A stretch of DNA of 64,000 nucleotides from Chitinophaga pinensis. Lineage in GTDB: Bacteria; Bacteroidota; Bacteroidia; UKL13-3. Positions 4,825 to 58,654 of this stretch are shown here, piece after piece. Below the pieces are notes generated by a model that saw only the letters and a list, made by a program, of their open reading frames with translations, was not told the origin of the DNA and did not search any database. Every line of letters starts with the position of its first letter. Within the stretch, counting starts at the first letter, position 1. The stretch covers positions 1 to 64,000 of the forward strand of contig CAMBSD010000007.1 in the NCBI GenBank assembly GCA_945870425.1, read 5' to 3'. Both the position numbers and the translations under genes were made by a program.

Positions 4825-7800
4825 ATGAAATTATTTATTTGGAAATTTGAATTAAAGACCTGGATTATTTGTATTACGCTCATTTTATTTTCAAGCCTAA
4901 GTGCACAAGCACAAGAATCGAAAGAAATCATTAAAAACTATATTCAGGCGCAAGCCAAAGAAAATATTATTGATCCTAAAGATTTTTCAGAGTGGGCATT
5001 GACAGACGAATATACCGACAAAGGTACAGGAATAACCCATGCCTACATGCAACAAATGTATCATGGCATACCCATATTTAATGCCATTAGTGTTGTGGCA
5101 ATTAAAGATTCAAAAGTGGCCGTTTTCAGACCAGGTATTGTTCCTTACTTAAACAAAAGAGTAAAAACGGATGTACCTACTTTAAGTCCTGAAGAAGGTG
5201 TAAATGCAGCATTGGCGTGCATTAAGAAAAAAAGCAAGAATTTATCTTTTATTGAAAAAGACGAAATAAAACATAAATATACCTACACTGATAAAAGCAT
5301 TTCTGTGAGCCCAATAGAAGTTCAACTGACGTTTGTTGCTATAGATGATAAAGTACTATTATCTTGGAATGTAAGTGTTGAATTAATTAAAGAACCTCAT
5401 TGGTGGAACATCAGAGTTGATGCTGTAAAGGGAAAGTTTATCGAGAAAAATGATTTTACGAGATCATGTAATTTTGGAATAGCACCCGCAAGTGCCATGG
5501 CTCCGCCACCACCTGCCCCTTTTGCTCCTGATTACAGGGTATTTGCTTACCCAATAGAAGCACCCACATTTGGAAGCCGAGCTTTGATATCTAACCCATC
5601 AGATCCTATTGCGTCTCCTTATGGTTGGCATGATATTGATGGCGTTGGGGGGGCTGAATACACCATTACTAGAGGCAACAATGTGCATGCCTATGAAGAC
5701 CGAAACAATGATAACCTTCCCGGATACTCGCCCGATGGCACATCAAACCTGGTTTTCGACTCAGTTTATTCTTTCACGAATGCTCCACTACTAAATCAAC
5801 ATGCCTCAGTAACCAATTTGTTCTATCTTAACAATTATATTCATGACTATTTATACCGTTTAGGTTTTGATGAAGTCTCTGGTAATTTCCAACAAAACAA
5901 TTATGGAAATGGTGGCTTAGGTTCAGATTATGTAAATGCAGAAGGATTTGATGGGGGTGGCACAAATAATGCTAACTTTTCAACCCCTGCTGATGGTTCA
6001 AAACCAAGAATGCAGATGTATCTTTTCAATTCCACTACGCCAAATAGAGATGGTTCTTTTGATAATGGGATTGTTGCCCATGAATTTGGGCATGGTGTTT
6101 CTAATCGCTTAACAGGCGGACCTTCTCAAGCTAGCTGTTTATCCAATGCCGAACAAGGTGGCGAAGGTTGGAGTGATTGGTTGGCTTTGATGCTCACCAT
6201 AAAACCTGGTGATGTAGGAGCAACCCCAAGGGGAATGGGTACATACGCAACAGGTCAAGCCACAAATGGTACTGGTATTAGAAGATATCCTTATAGTACT
6301 GATATGACAATCAATCCTCAAAACTATGCGAACATTGCAAATACCACTAGTGGTTCACAAGTGCATAACATGGGCGAGATTTGGTGCGATGTATTATGGG
6401 ACATGTCTTGGTTATTGATGGACCAATTTGGATACAGTTCAGACCCAACTATTGCAACAGCAGGTAATAACATTGCCATTAATTTGGTATTACAAGGAAT
6501 GAAACTTCAGCCATGCAATCCTGGTTTTTTAGATGCACGAAATGCTATACTTGCTGCAGACTCTTTGATATATGGTTATTCTCATAAATGCCTTATTTGG
6601 CAAGCATTTGCTAGAAGAGGTATGGGTTGGAGTGCTTCACAAGGTAGTGCTAATGTTGCAGGTGATGAAACAGCTGCTTTCAATATTCCTAATTTTTGTG
6701 TGGCTGTTACCCAAGCACCAGTGTCAAATTTCACTGCAAGCACAGTTACACCTGCCTGTGGAGGAAGCGTGAGTTTCACTGATCAATCAACACAAGCCCA
6801 GTCTTGGTTATGGTATTTTGGCGACAATACAACTTCAACAGCGCAAAACCCTTCCAAAGTATATACTTCACCTGGAACTTATACAGTTTCATTGGTGGTT
6901 ACAAATACCTTAGGCATTGACTCTTTGGCTAAGGTTAGTCATATCACTGTTGCTCCTACTTTTACAACAACAATTACCAATACTCCTGTGATAGGCTGTA
7001 GCGGAGATCCAGTTCAATTGACAGCTACACCAAGTGTAACAAATAATACTATTTATAATGTCAGCAATATTCCATATGCTCCAGTGGTTGGTGTTGGAAC
7101 AGGTTCGACAATAACGCTTACTGATGATCAGATGAGTGCAGCTTTGCCAATTGGTTTCACATTTAATTTCTTTGGAAATAATTATACGTCTTTCTACAAA
7201 TGTTCAAATGGGTTTATAACCTTTACAGCAAATCAAACATCCGCTACTTCCAGATACGGTGTGGCCATCCCTAACACAGCTACACCAAATAATTTTATTG
7301 CGGCAGCTTGGAGTGATTTGAATCCTGTTAGCACTAATGGTAGTAAAATAAGGTATATCACTACAGGTACAGCCCCCAATAGAAAATTAATTATAAACGA
7401 TTCAACTTTTCATTATGGCGGAACTGCTTATCCTATGATTGTTCAAACCATCTTATATGAAACAAGTAATATTATTGAGGTGCATAGTTCAACCATTACA
7501 AATACTTCACCTATAACAGCAACTAATGTTACTAAAACCATCACCCAAGGAATTGAAAACTCAGCTGGAAGCAAGGGTTATATTGTGCCAGGTCGAAACA
7601 GTGCCATCTTCTCAACTAATAATGATGCATATCGTTTCACACCTGGTTATTCTTATTTATGGACAACAGGGAATTTAAATGGCGCCACCCAAACCTTTTA
7701 TCCAACCTCTGCAAGCGGAACAGTATATGATGTAACGGTAAGTGATGGAACCTGCACGGCCACTTTTAGTTCCCCAGTGATTAATGTTTATCCTAAACCA

Positions 7801-10770
7801 ACTGTTACCATTAATGCCTCTTCTCAATCAGTGTGTTCAGGCAATCTGTTAACGCTAACAGCAACTGGTGCAAATAATTTAGTATGGACTGGTGGAGTAA
7901 GCAACGGTGTACCGTTTATTCCAAGTGCTACTTCTAAATATATAGTTACTGGCACAGATGCCAATGGATGTATTGGCAAAGATTCTATTACAGTGCCTGT
8001 TAGTAATTGTCTTAATACTGATTTGGCAAATTTGAGCATAAGTTCAGGATTACTTTCACCATCATTTGTAAAAACCACGTTGAATTATACCTCACTAGTT
8101 GCAAATAATATTAGTAGTATAAATATTACCCCTACTGCAGATGATGCATTGGCTGCACTCCAAATAAGAATTAACAATGGAACTTATTCCGATGTTTTGA
8201 GTGGATCAGTTGCATCAATTACAGGTCTAAACATAGGAACCAACGCGATTGATATCAGAGTAACTGCAAGAGATAATGTAACAACGAAGGTTTATACAAT
8301 TATTGTCAACCGATCTGCTTATTCAAACACCAACTTATCTAATATTAATTTAATTGGCGCACCTTATTCTCCGCTCTTCAACTCTGATACTTTAACATAC
8401 TCATCTACTGTATTATTTGGAGTAAATAAAGTCAAGGTATCTCCTATTGTCTCAGATTCCTCATCAAGAATAAAAATTATAATAAACAATGGTGCATATG
8501 TAAATATCAAAAGCAAGGATACCTCTGATTTCTTGGCCTTGAACATTGGTTCAAATACTATTTATATAAAAGTAGAAGTTCAAGACTCTACCATGAGTAA
8601 AATATATACCATCCATATTAACAGAGCAAATGCTGTTCCTCCTAGTGCTATGAATTATTCACCAAATTCAATAAATGCAATCAGGACAATATCATCTATA
8701 AATATTATACCAACATATTCTGGTGATTCAGTTACGTTTTTCCAAATAAATCCTTTATTGCCCAGTGGCTTAACATTTAATAATCTTACAGGTAGGATAA
8801 GTGGCACACCATTGGTGCTTTCTGCACAAACCAATTATACCATAACAGGTGTAAATAATGGAGGCAATACATCAACTATTTTCAGTTTGTCAGTTGTTGC
8901 TGTAGCACCAAGTAATTTAAAATACAATGATTCAGTAATTATCGCGACTCGAACAATTACTAATATCAGCTCAACTGCAAGCGCAAGCGGTGACTTGATT
9001 ACCAAATATAGAATTACGCCAAACTTACCAACTGGAATAAAATTAGATTCAACTACGGGTAAAATAAGTGGAATAGCTTCGGTGCTTTCTCCATTGACTA
9101 CCTATACCATAACTGGAAGTAATACAGGAGGTAGCGCCACAGCTAGCTTCACATTATCGGTAAATGCCATTGCTCCAAGCAATTTAAGATTCTCTGATTC
9201 TTCTGTAGTAGCCACTCGTACTTTAACAAACATTAATGCTAATCCTACTAACTCAGGCGATTTGATTACTAAGTATACTATTGACCCTGCTTTACCAATT
9301 GGATTAAATATTGATTCGGTTACTGGTGAAATAAGTGGAACTCCACAGGTAATATCACCATTCACTACCTATAACATTTTGGGTAGTAACTCTGGGGGTT
9401 TTGCTCTGGCATCATTCAAATTAACTGTAAACGCAATTGCCCCAAGCAATTTAAATTACACTGACTCTATTATCATTGCTACAAGAACCTTATCTAATAT
9501 CAATAACATCCCAACAAATACTGGTGACTTAATTACCAAATACAGTATCAGTCCTGCTTTGCCAATTGGATTAAGTTTGGATACAGTTACGGGAACCATT
9601 AGTGGAATTCCATTGCAAACTTCTCCTTTTATAACATACATAATTACAGGAACAAACTCAGGAGGAAGCACAACAACTACCTTAACTTTAACCGTTAATC
9701 CAATTGCACCAAGTAATTTAAAATACAGTGATTCAGCAGTTGTAGCAACACGTTTATTAACACATATAAATGCCATACCAAGTCATTTGGGTGATTCAAT
9801 TGATAGCTATCAAATCAGTCCTGTTTTACCTGCGGGTGTGAGTTTGGATTCAATTACTGGTACTATAAGTGGAACACCTTCCCAATTGATGCCATTAACT
9901 CTTTATACCATTACTGGTTCAAATTCTGGAGGTAGTGCAAATGCGATATTCTCTTTAACTGTTAATTCCATTGCGCCAAGCACTTTAAAATACTCGGATT
10001 CAAATATGGTTGCCACAAGAACCATTAGCAACATTAATTCAAATCCGATATATGTAGGTGACTCAATTACATTGTTTAAAATCAATCCATCTCTTCCAAT
10101 GGGTGTAAACTTAGATTCGATTACTGGAAAAATTTCAGGCATACCAACTGTACTTTCTCCATTAACAACTTATACCATCACAGGAACCAATTCAGGTGGA
10201 ACTACCAATGCTACTATCAAATTAATCGTAAAAGCAATTGCACCAAATGCCATGAGTTACGCACCTAGTTTGGTTATAGCTACCAATGGACTTACCAATA
10301 TTAGTTCTATTCCAAGTTATACTGGTGACTCGATTACCAGTTTCTCAGTAGCACCTACATTCCCTTCAGGTATCAGTTTAAATACTTCTACAGGTTTAAT
10401 CAGTGGCATTCCAGGTGTGGTATCAGCGCAAACCTTGTATACCATTACAGGAAGTAATACAGGAGGTAGCACAAATGCTACATTTACCTTAACTGTAAAC
10501 AAAGGAACAGGTATCAATGAAACAGAATTGATAAGCACAGCCATATACCCTAACCCAACAACGGGCATCGTAAACATCAGTTCAAATCAAGCTATTGAGA
10601 ATATTGAAGTATATGATGTAACAGGCAAATTGGTGTTGAGCCACAGAAATGATAGCCATCAAAAGCATATTGAATTAGATTTATCTGCCTTTAGCAATGG
10701 TATTTACTTCATTCAAACCCATAACCAAAACGCTGAAACGACCTTGAACAAAGTGGTCATTTCAAAATAA
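4825..10770 (+). CDS. Secreted M36 (fungalysin-like) metallopeptidase, T9SS cargo
   Basis: This 1981-residue protein is exported and probably attached to the cell surface or released by T9SS. A signal peptide covers residues 1-30, followed by an FTP-like propeptide. The M36 catalytic site is HEFGH (H419, E420, H423), with the third zinc ligand in MGEIW (about E518). After it come a PKD domain (about 632-712), a large region with a cysteine-poor beta fold, two cadherin-like beta-sandwich domains (about 1063-1165 and 1166-1268), seven Ig-like (He_PIG) repeats of 89 residues (1273-1895), and a T9SS C-terminal domain starting YPNPTTG (about 1907). A TACTTTTG at 4758-4765 may be its -7 element. 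It is far longer than typical M36 enzymes because of the repeats. Confidence 0.93.
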   Translation: MKLFIWKFELKTWIICITLILFSSLSAQAQESKEIIKNYIQAQAKENIIDPKDFSEWALTDEYTDKGTGITHAYMQQMYHGIPIFNAISVVAIKDSKVAVFRPGIVPYLNKRVKTDVPTLSPEEGVNAALACIKKKSKNLSFIEKDEIKHKYTYTDKSISVSPIEVQLTFVAIDDKVLLSWNVSVELIKEPHWWNIRVDAVKGKFIEKNDFTRSCNFGIAPASAMAPPPPAPFAPDYRVFAYPIEAPTFGSRALISNPSDPIASPYGWHDIDGVGGAEYTITRGNNVHAYEDRNNDNLPGYSPDGTSNLVFDSVYSFTNAPLLNQHASVTNLFYLNNYIHDYLYRLGFDEVSGNFQQNNYGNGGLGSDYVNAEGFDGGGTNNANFSTPADGSKPRMQMYLFNSTTPNRDGSFDNGIVAHEFGHGVSNRLTGGPSQASCLSNAEQGGEGWSDWLALMLTIKPGDVGATPRGMGTYATGQATNGTGIRRYPYSTDMTINPQNYANIANTTSGSQVHNMGEIWCDVLWDMSWLLMDQFGYSSDPTIATAGNNIAINLVLQGMKLQPCNPGFLDARNAILAADSLIYGYSHKCLIWQAFARRGMGWSASQGSANVAGDETAAFNIPNFCVAVTQAPVSNFTASTVTPACGGSVSFTDQSTQAQSWLWYFGDNTTSTAQNPSKVYTSPGTYTVSLVVTNTLGIDSLAKVSHITVAPTFTTTITNTPVIGCSGDPVQLTATPSVTNNTIYNVSNIPYAPVVGVGTGSTITLTDDQMSAALPIGFTFNFFGNNYTSFYKCSNGFITFTANQTSATSRYGVAIPNTATPNNFIAAAWSDLNPVSTNGSKIRYITTGTAPNRKLIINDSTFHYGGTAYPMIVQTILYETSNIIEVHSSTITNTSPITATNVTKTITQGIENSAGSKGYIVPGRNSAIFSTNNDAYRFTPGYSYLWTTGNLNGATQTFYPTSASGTVYDVTVSDGTCTATFSSPVINVYPKPTVTINASSQSVCSGNLLTLTATGANNLVWTGGVSNGVPFIPSATSKYIVTGTDANGCIGKDSITVPVSNCLNTDLANLSISSGLLSPSFVKTTLNYTSLVANNISSINITPTADDALAALQIRINNGTYSDVLSGSVASITGLNIGTNAIDIRVTARDNVTTKVYTIIVNRSAYSNTNLSNINLIGAPYSPLFNSDTLTYSSTVLFGVNKVKVSPIVSDSSSRIKIIINNGAYVNIKSKDTSDFLALNIGSNTIYIKVEVQDSTMSKIYTIHINRANAVPPSAMNYSPNSINAIRTISSINIIPTYSGDSVTFFQINPLLPSGLTFNNLTGRISGTPLVLSAQTNYTITGVNNGGNTSTIFSLSVVAVAPSNLKYNDSVIIATRTITNISSTASASGDLITKYRITPNLPTGIKLDSTTGKISGIASVLSPLTTYTITGSNTGGSATASFTLSVNAIAPSNLRFSDSSVVATRTLTNINANPTNSGDLITKYTIDPALPIGLNIDSVTGEISGTPQVISPFTTYNILGSNSGGFALASFKLTVNAIAPSNLNYTDSIIIATRTLSNINNIPTNTGDLITKYSISPALPIGLSLDTVTGTISGIPLQTSPFITYIITGTNSGGSTTTTLTLTVNPIAPSNLKYSDSAVVATRLLTHINAIPSHLGDSIDSYQISPVLPAGVSLDSITGTISGTPSQLMPLTLYTITGSNSGGSANAIFSLTVNSIAPSTLKYSDSNMVATRTISNINSNPIYVGDSITLFKINPSLPMGVNLDSITGKISGIPTVLSPLTTYTITGTNSGGTTNATIKLIVKAIAPNAMSYAPSLVIATNGLTNISSIPSYTGDSITSFSVAPTFPSGISLNTSTGLISGIPGVVSAQTLYTITGSNTGGSTNATFTLTVNKGTGINETELISTAIYPNPTTGIVNISSNQAIENIEVYDVTGKLVLSHRNDSHQKHIELDLSAFSNGIYFIQTHNQNAETTLNKVVISK
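8641..10509 (+). repeat. Seven tandem 267-bp repeats inside the M36 gene
   Basis: Seven units of 89 codons follow each other without linkers. Each encodes a putative Ig (He_PIG) fold with the pattern ATRT-NIN---GD-ITKY-I-P-LP-G----TG-ISG--------TYTITGSN-GG. Units 2-6 are closest to each other, and units 1 and 7 have diverged most (AMNYSPN and AMSYAPS starts), as expected if the array grew from the middle. Copy number may vary between strains. Confidence 0.85.
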
Positions 10771-24205: not shown

Positions 24206-24736
24206 CTAATCAACCCCTGCTGCATCCAGTTTGCCTTTAGCAAAGTCTGCTGCAAAGTCCACAAAAACTTTATATGCTTGGGTAAAGGTGAATTTATTCT
24301 CTGCCGTTTTCTCTATGATATTCCTGCGATTCAAGGTAGTAAAGAACTGCTTTCTACTAAAGCTGTCTTTCATTTGGTTGTTATTCAATATCAATTCAGC
24401 ATAAGATGAATTGTAAAAATACTCATCAATCTTATCCATTTCAAATTCAGCATATTGAATTTCTTCCAAAAAATTCTTTCCATCTTTATCTAATTCAAAA
24501 CTTAGAACAGCAAAGAAAAGACAAATATCTCGGCTCAATTGTTCGCCTGTTTCGTAAGATAGGATAAAAGCAAAATCAGTTTTCACTTCAAGTTCGTATG
24601 CAAAGCTTTCTCTGAAAAACTTAGCATAAAAATCTTCGCTCTCTTTCAGAGAAACAAACTTGGGGTCGCTGGCAAGTATAAACTTACCGCCCATTAAATC
24701 GCTTACGATGTCTTTGTGGTATCTAGGAAATTCCAT
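24206..24736 (-). CDS. jetB: MukE/MksE-like (JetB-type) condensin accessory protein
   Basis: This 176-residue acidic protein resembles the MksE subunit, a double winged-helix protein that joins the kleisin in Mks/Wadjet complexes. The C-terminal part (FSRKQFFTTLNRRNIIEKTAENKFTFT) reads as a winged helix. It overlaps the preceding gene by 14 bases, which suggests coupled translation. It is the last gene of a four-gene operon, before ccmC. Assignment relies on context and on a general match; a profile search would settle it. Confidence 0.7.
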   Translation of the reverse strand: MEFPRYHKDIVSDLMGGKFILASDPKFVSLKESEDFYAKFFRESFAYELEVKTDFAFILSYETGEQLSRDICLFFAVLSFELDKDGKNFLEEIQYAEFEMDKIDEYFYNSSYAELILNNNQMKDSFSRKQFFTTLNRRNIIEKTAENKFTFTQAYKVFVDFAADFAKGKLDAAGVD

Positions 24737-25922
24737 ATTTCAATATCTTAATTTTTGGTACACGTAATGTCATTTGACTGGTTTTGATGAGTTTTCTATC
24801 TGGCTCTTTTTCATCTAACTCCAAGAAAATATCATCTTCAAAAAGCAAGCCTGTAAGGGCAAAAAACTTATCCGTTTCTATGTCTTTATATTCACTTCTC
24901 AGTGTCAATCCACACCAATCAAAGAAACTATCAATTGGCAATTGTTGCAACATTCTGTCTTTATAAAGCTCTTTGTTAAATACCCACTTATCGCTACTGG
25001 CCACTGGGTCTTCCATCAATATATTCTCATCTGTAACAAATTGTTCTAAATACTCTTTGGCATTTAGATACATGTCGTTGCTATATGGATAATACCTTTC
25101 AGGCTTAAATATTTTTGGAACAGTTGATTTATAAGGTTGTTTCAAAAACTCTATCCAACCCGTAAGAATAATTGATTCCGTTCTGATGCGCTCAATTAAA
25201 GGTAACAATTCATTGGTTAATAATTTAGACTGACGAAGCAAATTGTCGTTCGTCATCACCAAGAAATTGTAGAGTTTTTCAAACTGTAGGCGAATGTTCT
25301 CGTCATTAAAATTAAGCCTACGTACGTTTACATACTGTGAAATATCAAAGAGTTTATTGGTAATACTTTCGGCATGGTTAATATCAAGGATATTGTTTAA
25401 AGGAATGATATAATAATCAATCCAGAAACTGGCCTTGCGCACTTTCTCTTTATAGTCAAGCTTCTCAACATTAGATTTTAACTCTCTTGTTTCGGCTAAT
25501 AAACGGATGGTGTTTTTCTCTACAGCCTCACTAAACTCCCTTATCTCATTGTTTAAATCATCAATTCTGTTTTTTAGAATAAGGTTATCACCTTTGATGC
25601 CTTCACGTATTTTACTAAATAATTTACCTATGGATTGCTCGTATTTTTGAATGGTTTCAGGTAACAATGGTCTAAATTCATTCAAAATGAATTCAAACAA
25701 TTTAAAGTAAACATCCCTGAATTCAAAATCATCGCCAATTTTGCGAATGATTTTGTAATCAATGAGCTGTGTCTCGATAGGGTCATTTCTCTCAGAAAGC
25801 ACTTGCATAAGTTGCTCCTTACGAATAATACCCTCATCCGATTGTATATCAAACAAATCTTTTAAGCTATCAAAATGGTTAGCTAAAAAGTTGAGTATGG
25901 TTTTTGGTTCTGCTTTTAACAT
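24723..25922 (-). CDS. jetA: MukF/MksF-like (JetA-type) kleisin
   Basis: This 399-residue protein begins with a winged helix (about 1-90: TILNFLANHFDSLKDLFDIQ), then a long helical region rich in E, K and L (about 90-260) as in the kleisin middle, and a C-terminal domain ending in TLRVPKIKIL. In Mks/Wadjet systems the kleisin bridges the SMC heads. It lies 12 bases after the TOPRIM gene and overlaps the MksE-like gene. Length is close to the family, shorter than E. coli MukF. Confidence 0.72.
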   Translation of the reverse strand: MLKAEPKTILNFLANHFDSLKDLFDIQSDEGIIRKEQLMQVLSERNDPIETQLIDYKIIRKIGDDFEFRDVYFKLFEFILNEFRPLLPETIQKYEQSIGKLFSKIREGIKGDNLILKNRIDDLNNEIREFSEAVEKNTIRLLAETRELKSNVEKLDYKEKVRKASFWIDYYIIPLNNILDINHAESITNKLFDISQYVNVRRLNFNDENIRLQFEKLYNFLVMTNDNLLRQSKLLTNELLPLIERIRTESIILTGWIEFLKQPYKSTVPKIFKPERYYPYSNDMYLNAKEYLEQFVTDENILMEDPVASSDKWVFNKELYKDRMLQQLPIDSFFDWCGLTLRSEYKDIETDKFFALTGLLFEDDIFLELDEKEPDRKLIKTSQMTLRVPKIKILKYGIS

Positions 25923-25934
25923 TCAACAATATTT

Positions 25935-26720
25935 TTAATTAAATAGAATTTGTTGTTCTAAGAATTTATTATTTCTCAAAATATAATCTCTAATCTTCAA
26001 TACTACTTCATCATTGGTATTTTTCAACCTATCTTTCATTTCACCTTTTATGGGCATTCTTGATTGCTTTAATATTTCTTGAAAATCTGAAGGTATAAAT
26101 AAAGTGGTATTGGGAAAATTTTCTTTACAATACAAATACTCTTCCAATCCTGTAAAGTCATAATCAGGACAGAATAGCACTTCTTTTACACGCCAATTAG
26201 AAAAATCATTTTGCCCTAGTCTTCCATATTTATGAACGAATACATAGTCTTTGCCTATGGTTTTTTCTGCTACCTCAAAACAATCTTTATTTTCAATCCA
26301 ACATAATTTATCAGTTTCTACCGAAACATTGCTACATCCAAAGAAACCAAATTTGTTAGTGTAAAAACCTAAGTCTATTGTTTCATTATTCACTTTAACT
26401 TTCTTATTTCCTCTATAAAAATAATAAGGGTTGGTTTCAAGACCTCCTATAATTTTACTATTTCCAAACTTTTTAGCCGCATCAATTTTTGAATTAACAT
26501 TGATAACATCAGTATTTATTTGACTTTTAAAAATCTCCTTAAATACATACTGATTAACAATTATCAAATTACTACCCCTGCCCATTTTCTCAAATTCGAT
26601 AGCATTTGCCTGTTCCATTAGTTTAAACAACTTTGAATTACGAACAACCGAACCTACCGAACTTTTGGCGATTCGTTTCTCAGTTTTCAGATTAATAAAA
26701 AAGTCATTTATAATATTCAT
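25935..26720 (-). CDS. jetD: JetD/MksG-like TOPRIM nuclease
   Basis: This 261-residue protein has a winged-helix-like N-terminus (about 1-60) and a TOPRIM-like C-terminus. The glutamate motif ENKDCF (E143, F147) and the DYDFTG motif (D186, D188, G191) match the E and DxDxxG signatures of JetD, the plasmid-cutting nuclease of Wadjet. It is much shorter than JetD proteins I know (around 380-400 residues), so the arm or dimerisation region may be reduced. It follows the SMC gene by 3 bases. Confidence 0.7.
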   Translation of the reverse strand: MNIINDFFINLKTEKRIAKSSVGSVVRNSKLFKLMEQANAIEFEKMGRGSNLIIVNQYVFKEIFKSQINTDVINVNSKIDAAKKFGNSKIIGGLETNPYYFYRGNKKVKVNNETIDLGFYTNKFGFFGCSNVSVETDKLCWIENKDCFEVAEKTIGKDYVFVHKYGRLGQNDFSNWRVKEVLFCPDYDFTGLEEYLYCKENFPNTTLFIPSDFQEILKQSRMPIKGEMKDRLKNTNDEVVLKIRDYILRNNKFLEQQILFN

Positions 26721-26723
26721 TTT

Positions 26724-29378
26724 CTATCTTGATACAACGGTATTATTTTCACCATACATCGCATTCACTTTCTCATTCACGTTTATCTTGCCTGCATTTG
26801 GATAGATAAAGTAATACTTACCAAATCCTGCCACCGCATCTGGAGCCGCAAAAATAGGTATGAAATAATGCTCTCTACAAAACCTCACCAATTCAGGTCG
26901 ATTCTGCTTATCAATGGTTGCCACCTCATCAATAAACAATACAATTCTATTCTCGTCATCTGCAATGGCCAATCGATTGATGATGTTCATCACAATCATC
27001 AAAAGAATCATCTTATCCGTTCCATCACTCTCTATCTGCTCATTCAAATCCACTGGCTTGGTTGAACCCTTGCGAGTCAAATGAAGGGTAATATCAAACA
27101 AGTTTTCAAAATCTATTTTCTTACCACTTTCTAAATAAGCGTCAAGAATTTTCAAGTTTTCTGAATGGTCAAACTCAAACATCAATTGGCCTTTCACCTG
27201 CTGAATTTGGCTGATTTTCTTCACCTCTTCAACTAGTTTTTTATTATCTACTAACTCAATGGTTAAGCTTTCAATATCAGAAATACGGCTTTGTGATAGT
27301 TTATGGTTGAACTTATTATTTATAAATTCTTTAAACTCATCATAACGTTTCAACAAGGTGTAGGCTGGGTTTGCAAACTGTGTGCTGATACTCTCCAAAA
27401 GTGATTGAATGCTTCGTTCTTTATCATCAATCAAAGCAATCTCTTCTTCAACATACCTGATAAAATCTTGCTCATCTGCAAAAGTCGATTGTAGTTTATC
27501 CCTCAACTTTTCAAACAAATTGTCTTTATTTATTTTTAGGGTAAATCTATCATTTTGATTCAACTTGATTTTATTGTAAAGCAAATCCAAATCTTCAGTG
27601 CTTTCAAATTCTTCATCAGCAACCAAACCTAGAGATTCAAGTTCTCGTTTGAAGTCTTGCAACTGAGCAATCCTATCTCCACGTTTCTTTATCTCATCAT
27701 TTATCTCGTTTAACTCATTTGATTTTTGCGCAATCTTTTTATTGATGGCTTTCAACTCGTTTTCAAACTGCTCTTTTTGGGTATTGATTTCAGTGATTAC
27801 ACCTTTCAATTTCTCAATGTTTTTAACGAGAGAAGGCTTGCTTTTTATCTTTTGTAATTTGATTTTAATAGTCTCAATCTCATTCAATATTACTTGCAAG
27901 TCAGACTGAGATTTCTCTATGTCTTTTAATGTATCAAGCAATTGCTCTTGACTTTTTAATTCAGCCTTGGCTTGTTCTAGTTTTTCTTTTATCTCTTCAA
28001 TACTTTCAAAGTCTTTTTGAACAATATTTTTTGAGATGTCAATCTCTCCATCAAATATTTTTAAGGTATCACTAATCTTGTGAATGGCTTTTTTCACCTG
28101 CTTGCCTGGCAATGCCTTCACTTGCTCACTTAATATGGCATTTAACAGCTTCCTATTATCCTTGTTACCACTGATTTTGTTGATCAACAAATCACTGTAG
28201 TTCTTAATTTGATTCTCGAAATTTTGAACCTGGTTTTTCAAACTCATTACCCTGAATTCAATCTGGTTTGATTTCAGTTTTTGAATATCAATCATGGTAA
28301 GTCTGCTCTCTATTTCTTTCCTTTTTTTATCAAAATTGGCAAGACTTTCATTCAGTATTTTTTCTGGCTCAAATGAGGTGATGGCAAACAACTCGGCCTC
28401 CTTTTCATTTAACTTTTCAGCTTCATGCTGTATTTCGGCAACCTTCCCTCCTATTTTTCTATCTAAATCAGATTTTTTAGGGTTTAAATCTTCATTTATC
28501 TCAGTATGTATTTTAGCTCTTGATTGCGTTTTGTCAACCAGTTGGCCTTGCAAGCTCGGCAGAGTATGCTCATAGTTTTGTGTGAAAGCAGCATACAACT
28601 GACTAATGATTTTGTTCTTAGCCGAATATTGACTTACGATTTCTCTAAAATCATCAAACTCGTTTTTAACAGATCTTAAATTACGAATCTCGTTATTGAT
28701 TTTACGTAAATCATAGATGTCTTTTTTGTTTTTCTGACTAAAGTTCAGAACCTCATTTTCCCTGTTATCCGCAATGATTAAAGCCTCTTTCAGGTTTTTG
28801 TTCGTTATCAATTTTGTATTGATAAGGTACCTGTAAATTTTAGAGAAATTATTACTCAATCCATCACTCTTCACGTTATCATCAAGCCAAACAACTCCAT
28901 TATTTCTTCTACCACGTTGGTACACAAAACTAAAAACCTCTCGTTTATCTTTGAAGGCCTCCAATTCAATCCCTTCTTTGGCTAAATTGGCTTGCACCTC
29001 GTCAAATTTCATTAATCGCTTTTCAGCATCTACGAAATGACTTTCCTTATAATCACTTGGGTATTTGTAATACTCTAAATTACCTTCACCATCACGCTTT
29101 AACAAGATACAGTAGTATGATTTTTTAAAGATTTCAAAAACGATGTAACTTTGATTTGGATTCGGGAAATAGTGATGTATCGTATCCTTGTCACCCCTCC
29201 TGTTACCGCTGAAAGTCATCTTGCTTCCATCAATGATAAAAAGGAAATTCAGTGCATATATTAAGGTTGATTTGCCAATATTATTGGGTCCAACTAGCTG
29301 AAGACTATCGCAATCATTAAAGCGAATTTCAGCCTTACCATAAACTTTAGAATTGATAATTGTAAGTGATGTAAGCAT
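26724..29378 (-). CDS. jetC: SMC/MukB-like ATPase (JetC/MksB-type)
   Basis: This 884-residue protein has an N-terminal Walker A (GPNNIGKS, 30-37), a Walker B/Glu near D817-E818 (VLFIDEVATID), and a large coiled coil between (about 200-690) with a turn near the middle and no recognisable hinge domain. A segment QIESDGTDKMILL near residue 785 may stand for the ABC signature. Length is well under MukB (about 1,480) and below typical JetC (over 1,000), so the arms are short. It is the first gene of the operon; upstream 340 bases may hold its promoter. The system is probably a Wadjet/Mks plasmid-defence or DNA-loop machine. Confidence 0.8.
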   Translation of the reverse strand: MLTSLTIINSKVYGKAEIRFNDCDSLQLVGPNNIGKSTLIYALNFLFIIDGSKMTFSGNRRGDKDTIHHYFPNPNQSYIVFEIFKKSYYCILLKRDGEGNLEYYKYPSDYKESHFVDAEKRLMKFDEVQANLAKEGIELEAFKDKREVFSFVYQRGRRNNGVVWLDDNVKSDGLSNNFSKIYRYLINTKLITNKNLKEALIIADNRENEVLNFSQKNKKDIYDLRKINNEIRNLRSVKNEFDDFREIVSQYSAKNKIISQLYAAFTQNYEHTLPSLQGQLVDKTQSRAKIHTEINEDLNPKKSDLDRKIGGKVAEIQHEAEKLNEKEAELFAITSFEPEKILNESLANFDKKRKEIESRLTMIDIQKLKSNQIEFRVMSLKNQVQNFENQIKNYSDLLINKISGNKDNRKLLNAILSEQVKALPGKQVKKAIHKISDTLKIFDGEIDISKNIVQKDFESIEEIKEKLEQAKAELKSQEQLLDTLKDIEKSQSDLQVILNEIETIKIKLQKIKSKPSLVKNIEKLKGVITEINTQKEQFENELKAINKKIAQKSNELNEINDEIKKRGDRIAQLQDFKRELESLGLVADEEFESTEDLDLLYNKIKLNQNDRFTLKINKDNLFEKLRDKLQSTFADEQDFIRYVEEEIALIDDKERSIQSLLESISTQFANPAYTLLKRYDEFKEFINNKFNHKLSQSRISDIESLTIELVDNKKLVEEVKKISQIQQVKGQLMFEFDHSENLKILDAYLESGKKIDFENLFDITLHLTRKGSTKPVDLNEQIESDGTDKMILLMIVMNIINRLAIADDENRIVLFIDEVATIDKQNRPELVRFCREHYFIPIFAAPDAVAGFGKYYFIYPNAGKINVNEKVNAMYGENNTVVSR

Positions 29379-55675: not shown

Positions 55676-57301
55676 ATGAATAATCTTTTAATTGTGACAG
55701 TTTTAATAATTGTATTATTAAGTTCATGCCAAACTAATAATCAAACAATTAACACGATAGACTTTGATAAAAATGGAACAATTGAAATACCAATAATTGG
55801 ACTACAAAAAACTAAGGCCTCACGTGCTAAAATATTAACATTTAATAATAATACTTACTTAGTTTTTAGCGATAGAAATACACAATTAATTTACGTTTAT
55901 TCTTGGAATGGAATGGAATTCAATTTATTTGATACAATAAATTATATATTGCCTTATAAAAAGGGGTTTAAAAATTTAAATGAATTCACATTAAAAAACT
56001 TGGACACCATAATAATATCCTATACATCATCATATTTTAATTATTTGCACGATTCCACAACATTCATGACAAATAAACAAAAAGACTTTATTTTAGAAGG
56101 GAATTTTGAGGCAGCTCCCGTTCTAACAAATAATAAAATGAGTTATAATAATTATGACTTAGATTTAATAAAGAAAAAAAATTCGAACTTCGTATCAAAT
56201 TCTGGGGACTTTCCAATATTTTATCATGAAAAATTTAAAGGTATTATTACTCCAATAAAGGATTTAACAAATTATACCAACTATTGCCGCAATATAGACA
56301 CTAACTACAGATATAGTGCAGGAATACTATATTTTGATGGGCGTCCATTCAATCCATTAAAAAATATTTTTTATCCATGCACTGACACTGGTGTTTATTA
56401 TCCGATTAATTTTAAATATATACGTGGTGATTATAATACAAGAAATCATGATGTTGTTTTTGGTTTTGGCAATAACAATGTTTTTACTATATTAGATACT
56501 AATCTTAATATTAAGCGAATAAAAGTTGATTCATATATTTTAGATACAATTTATCCGTATAATTTTTTTTATGATGAGTTCACTGATTATAGCAGAGGTG
56601 AATTTTTAAAGATTATATACGACTACAATTATGATTGTTATTATAGAATTATTAGAGTAGGTAATAATGTTAAAGATTTTAATGCTGAAATAAAACCTCA
56701 AAAATATCAAAGCATTAAAGAAACATACATTATCCAAAAAATCAATAATAAATTTAAGCTCATATCTGAAGGAATTGTTCCTGAAGAATATAACAATGAT
56801 TTTATGTCAATTTTACCTTTTAAAAATTATTTACTTTTCCAAAATCCAGTTAAATCGCTTGAAAAAGGCAGAATAATTTTCGATAAAATAATACTAAGAG
56901 AAAAAAAATCAAATGTTATTTCATTTAAAAACGAAGTGTTTAATTTAATTGAAAATAAGAAAAAAGAATTTTTGGGGAAATCATACAACGACTACGTTTA
57001 TACGATTACAAATCACAAAAAAAGTACTATTGTTTATAACATGGATGAAGCTTGCAGGAGCTGTATTGAGTATTTTTTTCAATACTTAAAAATCAATATG
57101 GATAAAATTGACTATAATAAACTGTCTATTATTTTAATTACAGCAAATAAAAAGTATTTAATGGAAGTATTGAACAGAGATAGCTTACCAAAAGGCATTT
57201 ATGTTGATGATTTAGGAATATCTAAAAGATACGTTGGAAATATTAGAAATGCAGTTAAAATTGATTTTGTTAATGATAGTTCATATATAAAACAATTTTA
57301 A
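55676..57301 (+). CDS. Lipoprotein with C-terminal CxxC, unknown function
   Basis: This 541-residue lipoprotein (lipobox LLSSC, C18) has a long beta-rich body (about 30-400) that may be a propeller similar to DUF4221-type proteins, and a final part of about 110 residues with CRSC (C460-C463) in the pattern VYNMDEACRSCIEYFF, then SIILITANKKYL, as in a thioredoxin-like fold. Codon use is very A/T-rich. It probably acts with the small cysteine-rich protein before it. Confidence 0.55.
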   Translation: MNNLLIVTVLIIVLLSSCQTNNQTINTIDFDKNGTIEIPIIGLQKTKASRAKILTFNNNTYLVFSDRNTQLIYVYSWNGMEFNLFDTINYILPYKKGFKNLNEFTLKNLDTIIISYTSSYFNYLHDSTTFMTNKQKDFILEGNFEAAPVLTNNKMSYNNYDLDLIKKKNSNFVSNSGDFPIFYHEKFKGIITPIKDLTNYTNYCRNIDTNYRYSAGILYFDGRPFNPLKNIFYPCTDTGVYYPINFKYIRGDYNTRNHDVVFGFGNNNVFTILDTNLNIKRIKVDSYILDTIYPYNFFYDEFTDYSRGEFLKIIYDYNYDCYYRIIRVGNNVKDFNAEIKPQKYQSIKETYIIQKINNKFKLISEGIVPEEYNNDFMSILPFKNYLLFQNPVKSLEKGRIIFDKIILREKKSNVISFKNEVFNLIENKKKEFLGKSYNDYVYTITNHKKSTIVYNMDEACRSCIEYFFQYLKINMDKIDYNKLSIILITANKKYLMEVLNRDSLPKGIYVDDLGISKRYVGNIRNAVKIDFVNDSSYIKQF

Positions 57302-57442: not shown

Positions 57443-58654
57443 ATGAAATTCCATTTAAACCTGCTAAATGCTGTTTGTCTTAGCATTAGCAACATTTTCG
57501 ATGACAATAAATACGCTGATAAGGTGCTAGAAAGGGTACTAAAATCAAATAACCGCTGGGGAGCACGTGATAGGGCTTTTATAGCCGAAAACACTTATGA
57601 CATGGTGCGCTATTGGCGTTTGATAAGAACTGTGGCGGAGTTAGAGACACATGATCTTAACCAACAAAACCTCTATACATTGTTTGGCACTTGGCAAATA
57701 TTGAAAGGTGCACCCATTCCTAATTGGGAGGAGTTTAAAAATGTGGATGTAAAAAAAATTGAGCATAACTACAAAATATTAAAAACACAAAGAAAGATTG
57801 TTCACTCAGTACCCGATTGGTTAGATGATTTAGCTATAAAAGAATTAGGTAAGCAATGGAACCAAGAAGTGGAAGCATTAAACTTAACAGCACCTGTGGT
57901 AATAAGGGTTAATAATCTAAAAACAAACAAAGCTGATTTAGCCAAATCATTAAAAGACAAAGATATTTTAACTGAAATAGTTCAAGGCTGCAAAGACGCA
58001 TTGATACTTAAGGAAAGACAAAATCTTTTCATCACTGAGGAGTTTAAAAATGGCTTATTTGAAGTGCAAGATGCTTCTTCTCAATTGGTAGCTGAAATGA
58101 TGCAATTGGAACCTGGAATGAAAGTGGTGGATGCCTGTGCTGGTGCTGGTGGAAAAAGTATGCACATCGCTTCTATCATGCAAAACAAAGGACGTATTAT
58201 CAGTCTTGATACCGAACAATGGAAATTAGATGAATTGAAGAAACGAGGTCGCAGAGCAGGTGTTTGTAATATTGAAACGCGTTTGATTGAAGGTACCAAA
58301 ACCATCAAAAAATTACATGATTTTGCTGATAGGGTTCTTCTAGATGTGCCTTGCAGCGGATTAGGAGTTATTAAGCGTAACCCTGATGCCAAATGGAAAC
58401 TAAGTTTGGAGTTTATAGAAAAAGTAAAGAAACAACAACAAGAAATCCTCGAAAACTATAGTAAAATTGTAAAACCAGGAGGAAAAATGGTATATGCTAC
58501 ATGCAGTATTTTGCCTAGCGAAAACTTTTTGCAAGTGGAGGCTTTCTTAAAAAATCACCCTGAGTTTACCTTAGAAGAAGAGAAACGTTTATACCCAAGT
58601 CAAACAGGATTTGATGGATTTTATATGGCAAGATTGGTAAAAGCTAATGTATAA
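57443..58654 (+). CDS. RsmB/NOP2-family RNA m5C methyltransferase
   Basis: This 403-residue enzyme methylates cytosine C5 in rRNA (or tRNA). The SAM motif VVDACAGAGGKS, motif IV DVPCSGLGVIKRNPD and motif VI YATCSILPSEN with the two catalytic cysteines are present. The N-terminal part is helical like the NusB-like region of RsmB. The gene and bshB1 follow each other with 11 bases between. Target site not decided. Confidence 0.9.
   Translation: MKFHLNLLNAVCLSISNIFDDNKYADKVLERVLKSNNRWGARDRAFIAENTYDMVRYWRLIRTVAELETHDLNQQNLYTLFGTWQILKGAPIPNWEEFKNVDVKKIEHNYKILKTQRKIVHSVPDWLDDLAIKELGKQWNQEVEALNLTAPVVIRVNNLKTNKADLAKSLKDKDILTEIVQGCKDALILKERQNLFITEEFKNGLFEVQDASSQLVAEMMQLEPGMKVVDACAGAGGKSMHIASIMQNKGRIISLDTEQWKLDELKKRGRRAGVCNIETRLIEGTKTIKKLHDFADRVLLDVPCSGLGVIKRNPDAKWKLSLEFIEKVKKQQQEILENYSKIVKPGGKMVYATCSILPSENFLQVEAFLKNHPEFTLEEEKRLYPSQTGFDGFYMARLVKANV

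Follow-up and report, generated by a model that had tools for sequence, protein, structure and literature searches.

Structural maintenance of chromosomes (SMC) complexes normally fold chromosomes. Among the described bacterial forms are MukBEF of the Enterobacteria, the MksBEF condensin of P. aeruginosa and others, and Wadjet (JetABCD or MksBEFG, types I-III), the genes of which are arranged F-E-B-G (jetA-B-C-D). It has been recognized as a paradox that chromosome maintenance and the restriction of foreign DNA are the work of closely related SMC complexes, and in the model for JetABCD a circle is cut once it has been fully extruded (PMC10586767). A Hi-C study of gut bacteria observed chromosome-arm alignment in Bacteroidetes in which no known condensin was identifiable, and the complex was called unidentified (PMC10197239). 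Considered here is an operon of Chitinophaga pinensis (assembly GCA_945870425.1) located at 24206-29378 within positions 1-64,000 of contig CAMBSD010000007.1; this stretch of 64,000 nt, analysed as a whole, is referred to as the window. A first-pass annotation, made from the letters alone, took the operon for a Wadjet-like system with a permuted gene order. It is thought here to encode, with reasonable though far from complete assurance, the organism's only SMC complex, a housekeeping condensin that carries an optional Wadjet-type nuclease gene. No paper on this arrangement was found in a literature search, most subscription literature being outside its reach.

The genes are designated B (SMC ATPase), G (TOPRIM nuclease), F (kleisin) and E (MksE), and the features of the operon are as follows:

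26724-29378, minus strand: B (MksB/JetC/MukB-like), a compact SMC-type ATPase of 884 residues; the operon's first gene
26721-26750, minus strand: upstream junction of G, made up of the final ~27 bases of B together with the spacer; point of divergence from the G-less congeneric allele
25935-26720, minus strand: G (MksG/JetD-like), a TOPRIM nuclease of 261 residues without the N-terminal DUF3322 arm; optional, between B and F
24723-25922, minus strand: F (MksF/JetA/MukF-like), a kleisin of 399 residues, assigned by predicted fold
24206-24736, minus strand: E (MksE/JetB/MukE-like), a KITE subunit of 176 residues, assigned by Pfam MksE

The four open reading frames (ORFs) lie on a single strand with the coordinates first described, and are transcribed in the order B-G-F-E (C-D-A-B in Jet naming). 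B and G are 3 bases apart, G and F 12, and F and E overlap by 14 bases; this overlap is kept across most of the B-F-E clade. The C-D-A-B order recurs in three independent loci (L016, L017 and L019), and the arrangement is therefore not due to chance.

The operon resembles Wadjet in that four part types stand together and in that G best matches MksG/JetD structures. It differs in gene order, in the length of its SMC protein (884 residues vs. ~1,100), in the small, arm-less G, and in a distribution that is core rather than accessory, with G mostly absent. Nearly all relatives within the order have an MksBEF-like make-up without nuclease, and the window operon has G; compared with MksBEF, the complex here is the sole SMC complex and not a companion of Smc, its gene order is different, its SMC protein is shorter, and G has been kept or regained by some of its members. 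With MukBEF it would share the property of standing in for Smc-ScpAB as the chromosomal complex, and the fold of F best matches that of MukF, but MukBEF has no nuclease partner, MukB is much longer, and the lineage is separate and highly divergent.

B-F-E in Genomes Lacking Smc

A survey of 64 genomes of the window's taxonomic order found F in 52, as a single core copy in each, and MksE in 53, and B is intact in most of the loci retrieved. Canonical Smc (TIGR02168) exceeded the cut-off in none of the 64, the best score being 51 bits; in a phylum-wide sample of 396 genomes the same model was positive in 323. Within the host genome, E is the sole MksE match, ScpA was not found (ScpB was not searched for), and the matches to SMC_N are to ORFs of the size of RecF, RecN and ABC ATPases (names inferred from ORF length), none of them Smc-sized. 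With F near-universal and Smc absent, B-F-E is thus the only recognizable SMC complex here.

Within the order, the identities of these F and MksE copies fall stepwise from one genus to the next, and a tree of concatenated B, F and E (51 rows) grouped the rows by genus with 18 label changes, the minimum possible and a value reached by none of 200 shuffles. Horizontal mobility of the whole operon within the order was rejected, as the tree follows genera. The ratio dN/dS for B, F and E was 0.01-0.07 in those pairs of G-less genomes that allowed an estimate of dS, a few values for very close pairs being zero. Judged from these sequences, B-F-E is functional without G and under strong purifying selection. 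By distribution, tree and selection it is a core, vertically inherited complex, and the patchy occurrence of Wadjet as a unit was not observed. The view of the operon as chiefly one of plasmid defence is incorrect or incomplete, the complex being single-copy, following genera and being present where Smc is missing (0/64). The proposal of a distinct Wadjet subtype is supported in part: the types of part, the families and the order stand, but B-F-E is near-universal (52/64) and intact G is confined to 3/64.

The B-F-E order without G was also found in at least seven other families of the Bacteroidia (f59, f73, f80, f82, f93, f94 and f103), at least eight with the window's own. The C-D-A-B order is as first described, but it is no permutation peculiar to this operon; the 'permuted' order is the standard one of a large clade, a widespread B-F-E complex lacking G and probably the condensin of Smc-less families of the Bacteroidia, with the nuclease gene occasionally inserted between B and F or retained there. 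Four more families (f69, f72, f87 and f90) have F-E-B trios that lack G and include a longer SMC protein. In a sample of 217 genomes of the class, Smc was found in 43, none from the families with G-less B-F-E or F-E-B, and MksE was present in 7 of the 43 Smc-positive genomes vs. 69 of the 174 Smc-negative ones (Fisher p 0.004, uncorrected for relatedness). Bacteroides ihuae, a control genome, had neither Smc nor MksE by the models used, and the candidate therefore gives no answer for Bacteroides itself. No relative of B was found in viral contigs or phage records.

The F-E-B trios were seen at nine loci of the Bacteroidia (L151, L152, L154, L155, L156, L157, L172, L175 and L177; f69, f87, f90, f72 and others), where SMC proteins of 1,050-1,230 residues, with no recognized adjoining nuclease gene, are encoded in Smc-less genomes; these are further candidates for unrecognized condensins.

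Identity of the Subunits

The SMC-like ATPase proposed by the first-pass annotation is borne out by the motifs of B, namely Walker A (GPNNIGKS), Walker B (FIDE) and the signature ESDGTDKM; the positions invariant in 13 relatives, the most distant of which are 18-19% identical overall, include Walker A residues, D817/E818 and S-x-G-T in the signature. A profile of canonical JetC aligned with its C-terminal head (E 1.4e-4). The MukE-like assignment of the 176-residue protein is likewise upheld, E matching Pfam MksE (PF21980) with an E-value of 4e-16 and 60 bits against a cut-off of 27. Searches of PDB sequences with B, G and F returned only chance or coiled-coil matches, and fold comparison was therefore needed. 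The AlphaFold model of F (mean predicted local distance difference test score, pLDDT, 78.5) has as its top matches MukF (9gm7, 3euh) and JetA (8as8), with probabilities of 0.97-1.00, in agreement with the kleisin first suggested. Profile-profile comparisons of F with canonical JetA and of E with canonical JetB were not convincing, and the identity of F thus rests on fold and that of E on Pfam. Comparison with Wadjet and Mks profiles succeeded for E with MksE, but the PADLOC Wadjet models (JetA-D, types I-III) gave no match for E, F or G and only JetC1, at E 0.014, for B. The NCBIfam models likewise failed to recognize the system.

G is an optional gene for a JetD/MksG-like TOPRIM nuclease. Its AlphaFold model (pLDDT 82.5) has as its first match among 350,542 PDB chains the MksG nuclease of C. 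glutamicum (8b7f; E 1e-4, probability 1.00) and, ranked third, JetD of P. aeruginosa (7til; E 0.012), as expected from the original TOPRIM assignment of the 261-residue protein. The family matches canonical JetD profile-to-profile (E 1.6e-6), and G of L016 lies above the Pfam cut-off for JetD_C. Invariant in the family are E143-N144 and D186-x-D188, the catalytic E and DxD of TOPRIM, and a C-terminal LEQ motif is common to G, plasmid-borne G and canonical JetD; with its catalytic residues in place, the nuclease is probably in an active form. The DUF3322 (CAP/arm) of canonical JetDs had no Pfam match in the window G, and in the model of this protein no more than a short helix-strand part at the N terminus precedes the TOPRIM region.

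The nearest relatives of G outside the B-G-F-E clade (16-23% identity) are other small, arm-less G proteins of ~285 residues (DUF7281/JetD_C), found on plasmids and chromosomes (Salinibacter pSR76, Persicobacter pPP6, L165 and L167), with PF23947 in that of L165. Their systems differ from the present operon in having the F-E-B-G order, B proteins of 926-1,235 residues and an accessory or plasmid-borne setting. Large plasmids of Salinibacter, Persicobacter, Pseudomonas, Polaromonas and Halioglobus (L011-L015) carry F-E-B-G genes with a small G and SMC proteins of 926-1,233 residues, which, where annotated, are mostly called hypothetical proteins. The SMC gene of another F-E-B-G operon (L158, 5082-5325) is in two ORFs of 551 and 594 residues, reflecting a frameshift, a pseudogene or an assembly error.

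Presence and Proposed Exchange of G

Intact G was found in three of the 64 genomes of the order, namely those of the window, L016 (genome G004) and L017 (G032), and outside the order in another family (G249, L019), where B-G-F-E lies beside a normal Smc. The remaining loci are B-F-E; B and F are separated there by 9-114 bases, a distance that reaches 431 bases in one genus (g9). A 55-residue C-terminal piece of G, with 55% identity, remains between B and F in G045 (L003/L018), making loss of G certain there, and at L002 and L004 repeat-rich DNA takes the place of G. At the G-less loci L063, L064 and L003 of genus g9, short repeats such as 'GCAATTGACAATAGGCAATAAGAAATTGG' occur in the gap between B and F and are perhaps involved in deletion.

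Closest to the window is a congeneric genome (L001/G051) whose B and F proteins are 98% and 100% identical to those of the window and in which G is wholly absent, the B stop and the F start being ~13 bases apart. The DNA of the two B genes is ~99% identical over several hundred bases and parts in the last ~27. Divergence is ~2% around the G site and 6-9% further out, as would be expected if a tract spanning the site had recently been exchanged. Similarly, G004 (with G) and G018 (without) have common flanking genes, and their DNA identity is flat at 82-87% right up to the G junctions. Identity between G proteins is 33-38% whatever the identity of the corresponding B proteins (43-74%). The window G has a GC content of 28.4-28.5%, the third lowest of the 42 ORFs of the window, compared to 33-35% for its partners, and in third-position GC the genes B, F and E rank near the top; G is AT-rich relative to its partners in the window, L016 and L017 (28.4, 24.2 and 27.7% vs. 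29-35%), and not so in L019. By these signs, G behaves as a module.

Simple vertical retention of G would entail ~12 independent losses (a hand count on the tree), compared to four changes if gain and loss cost the same. Against simple repeated insertion speak the use of one identical site in every case, the remnant in G045 and the undisturbed flanks of L016. Exchange of G by homologous recombination fits best, without being proven.

Proposed Function

Given its SMC/kleisin/KITE anatomy and what is known of MukBEF and Wadjet, B-F-E is proposed to be a loop extruder, an MksBEF/MukBEF-type condensin in place of Smc-ScpAB. Paired B heads would bind ATP, and the F kleisin and E (KITE) would close the heads. 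The complex would dimerize via F and should fold the chromosome through ATP-driven loop extrusion; the chromosomal role itself is probable from distribution and selection. Where encoded, G should dock, though arm-less, on the B-F-E complex, and it would cut small circular DNA after the motor had extruded the whole circle, in the manner of Wadjet, which makes anti-plasmid activity of the G-bearing form plausible. Drawn together, a sole condensin with a swappable Wadjet nuclease that combines chromosome folding with the destruction of small circular DNA, a G gene that comes and goes by recombination through the flanking condensin genes, and a B-F-E family that serves as the condensin of several Smc-less lineages of the Bacteroidia make up a more tentative proposal, possible but held with somewhat more doubt than belief.

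The operon could instead be a stand-alone anti-plasmid system, a distinct Wadjet subtype whose G-less copies are decayed or inactivated defences. All four Wadjet part types are indeed present, the TOPRIM residues are kept in G, F-E-B-G relatives with a small G are found on plasmids, and B-G-F-E beside a normal Smc in L019 is the accessory setting expected of defence; decay, however, is at odds with a G-less B-F-E that is intact in dozens of genomes at the dN/dS given above, and in the order it is single-copy, genus-congruent, near-universal and the only SMC complex recognized. Moreover, the order also contains a separate, canonical Wadjet with a full-length JetD (L162 in G063, by PADLOC JetC1/JetD1), and this explanation is considered unlikely. 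Slightly less likely still is that the operon is purely a condensin and G a relict, or a gene otherwise used (e.g., in regulatory DNA binding), that is being lost. Such a fate would accord with the absence of G from nearly all relatives, its remnant in G045, its fast divergence and its want of the arm of canonical JetD, but a relict would hardly be expected to keep a full-length open frame, the invariant E143, D186 and D188 and the LEQ motif, or to be intact in three separate lineages of the order.

Several observations weigh against a housekeeping condensin with an optional nuclease. No match to F was obtained in twelve of the order's 64 genomes; some of these are fragmented, but seven that are 91-99% complete (G013, G031, G040, G041, G043, G044 and G052) seem to be without both Smc and B-F-E, so that the complex is not indispensable. 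The chromosomal neighbours of the operon vary between genera, the Foldseek TM-scores are modest (0.38 for G and 0.31 for F), and no docking motif of the JetB 'IFDR' type is evident in E. As a separate observation, the seven near-complete genomes and more fragmented relatives may have no recognizable condensin at all.

Surroundings of the Operon

Upstream of the operon are genes for a TolC-like protein, an HlyD-like protein and an ABC transporter, and downstream is one for a CcmC-like protein; no defence island is evident around it in the window. Elsewhere in the window, the plus strand encodes a 1,981-residue M36 (fungalysin) metallopeptidase with Ig-like, cadherin-like and PKD domains and a Por_Secre_tail sorting domain (4825-10770), a 541-residue ORF of very low GC (24%) that has no Pfam or PADLOC match and is possibly a recent acquisition (55676-57301), and a 403-residue protein whose C-terminal half matches PADLOC mads_2 (57443-58654; E 4.6e-19).

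Implications

B-F-E offers a concrete condensin candidate for several Smc-less families of the Bacteroidia, though not for Bacteroides. The transition between G-bearing and G-less forms is visible between congeneric genomes in which the B-F-E trio is the sole SMC complex, and such genomes, with a near-identical complex with and without the nuclease, constitute a natural experiment. They make it testable how a chromosome-bound extruder avoids cutting the chromosome it sits on, and how a defence form is converted into a housekeeping form or the reverse. If the proposal is true, chromosome folding and defence against plasmids may be the work of a single machine.
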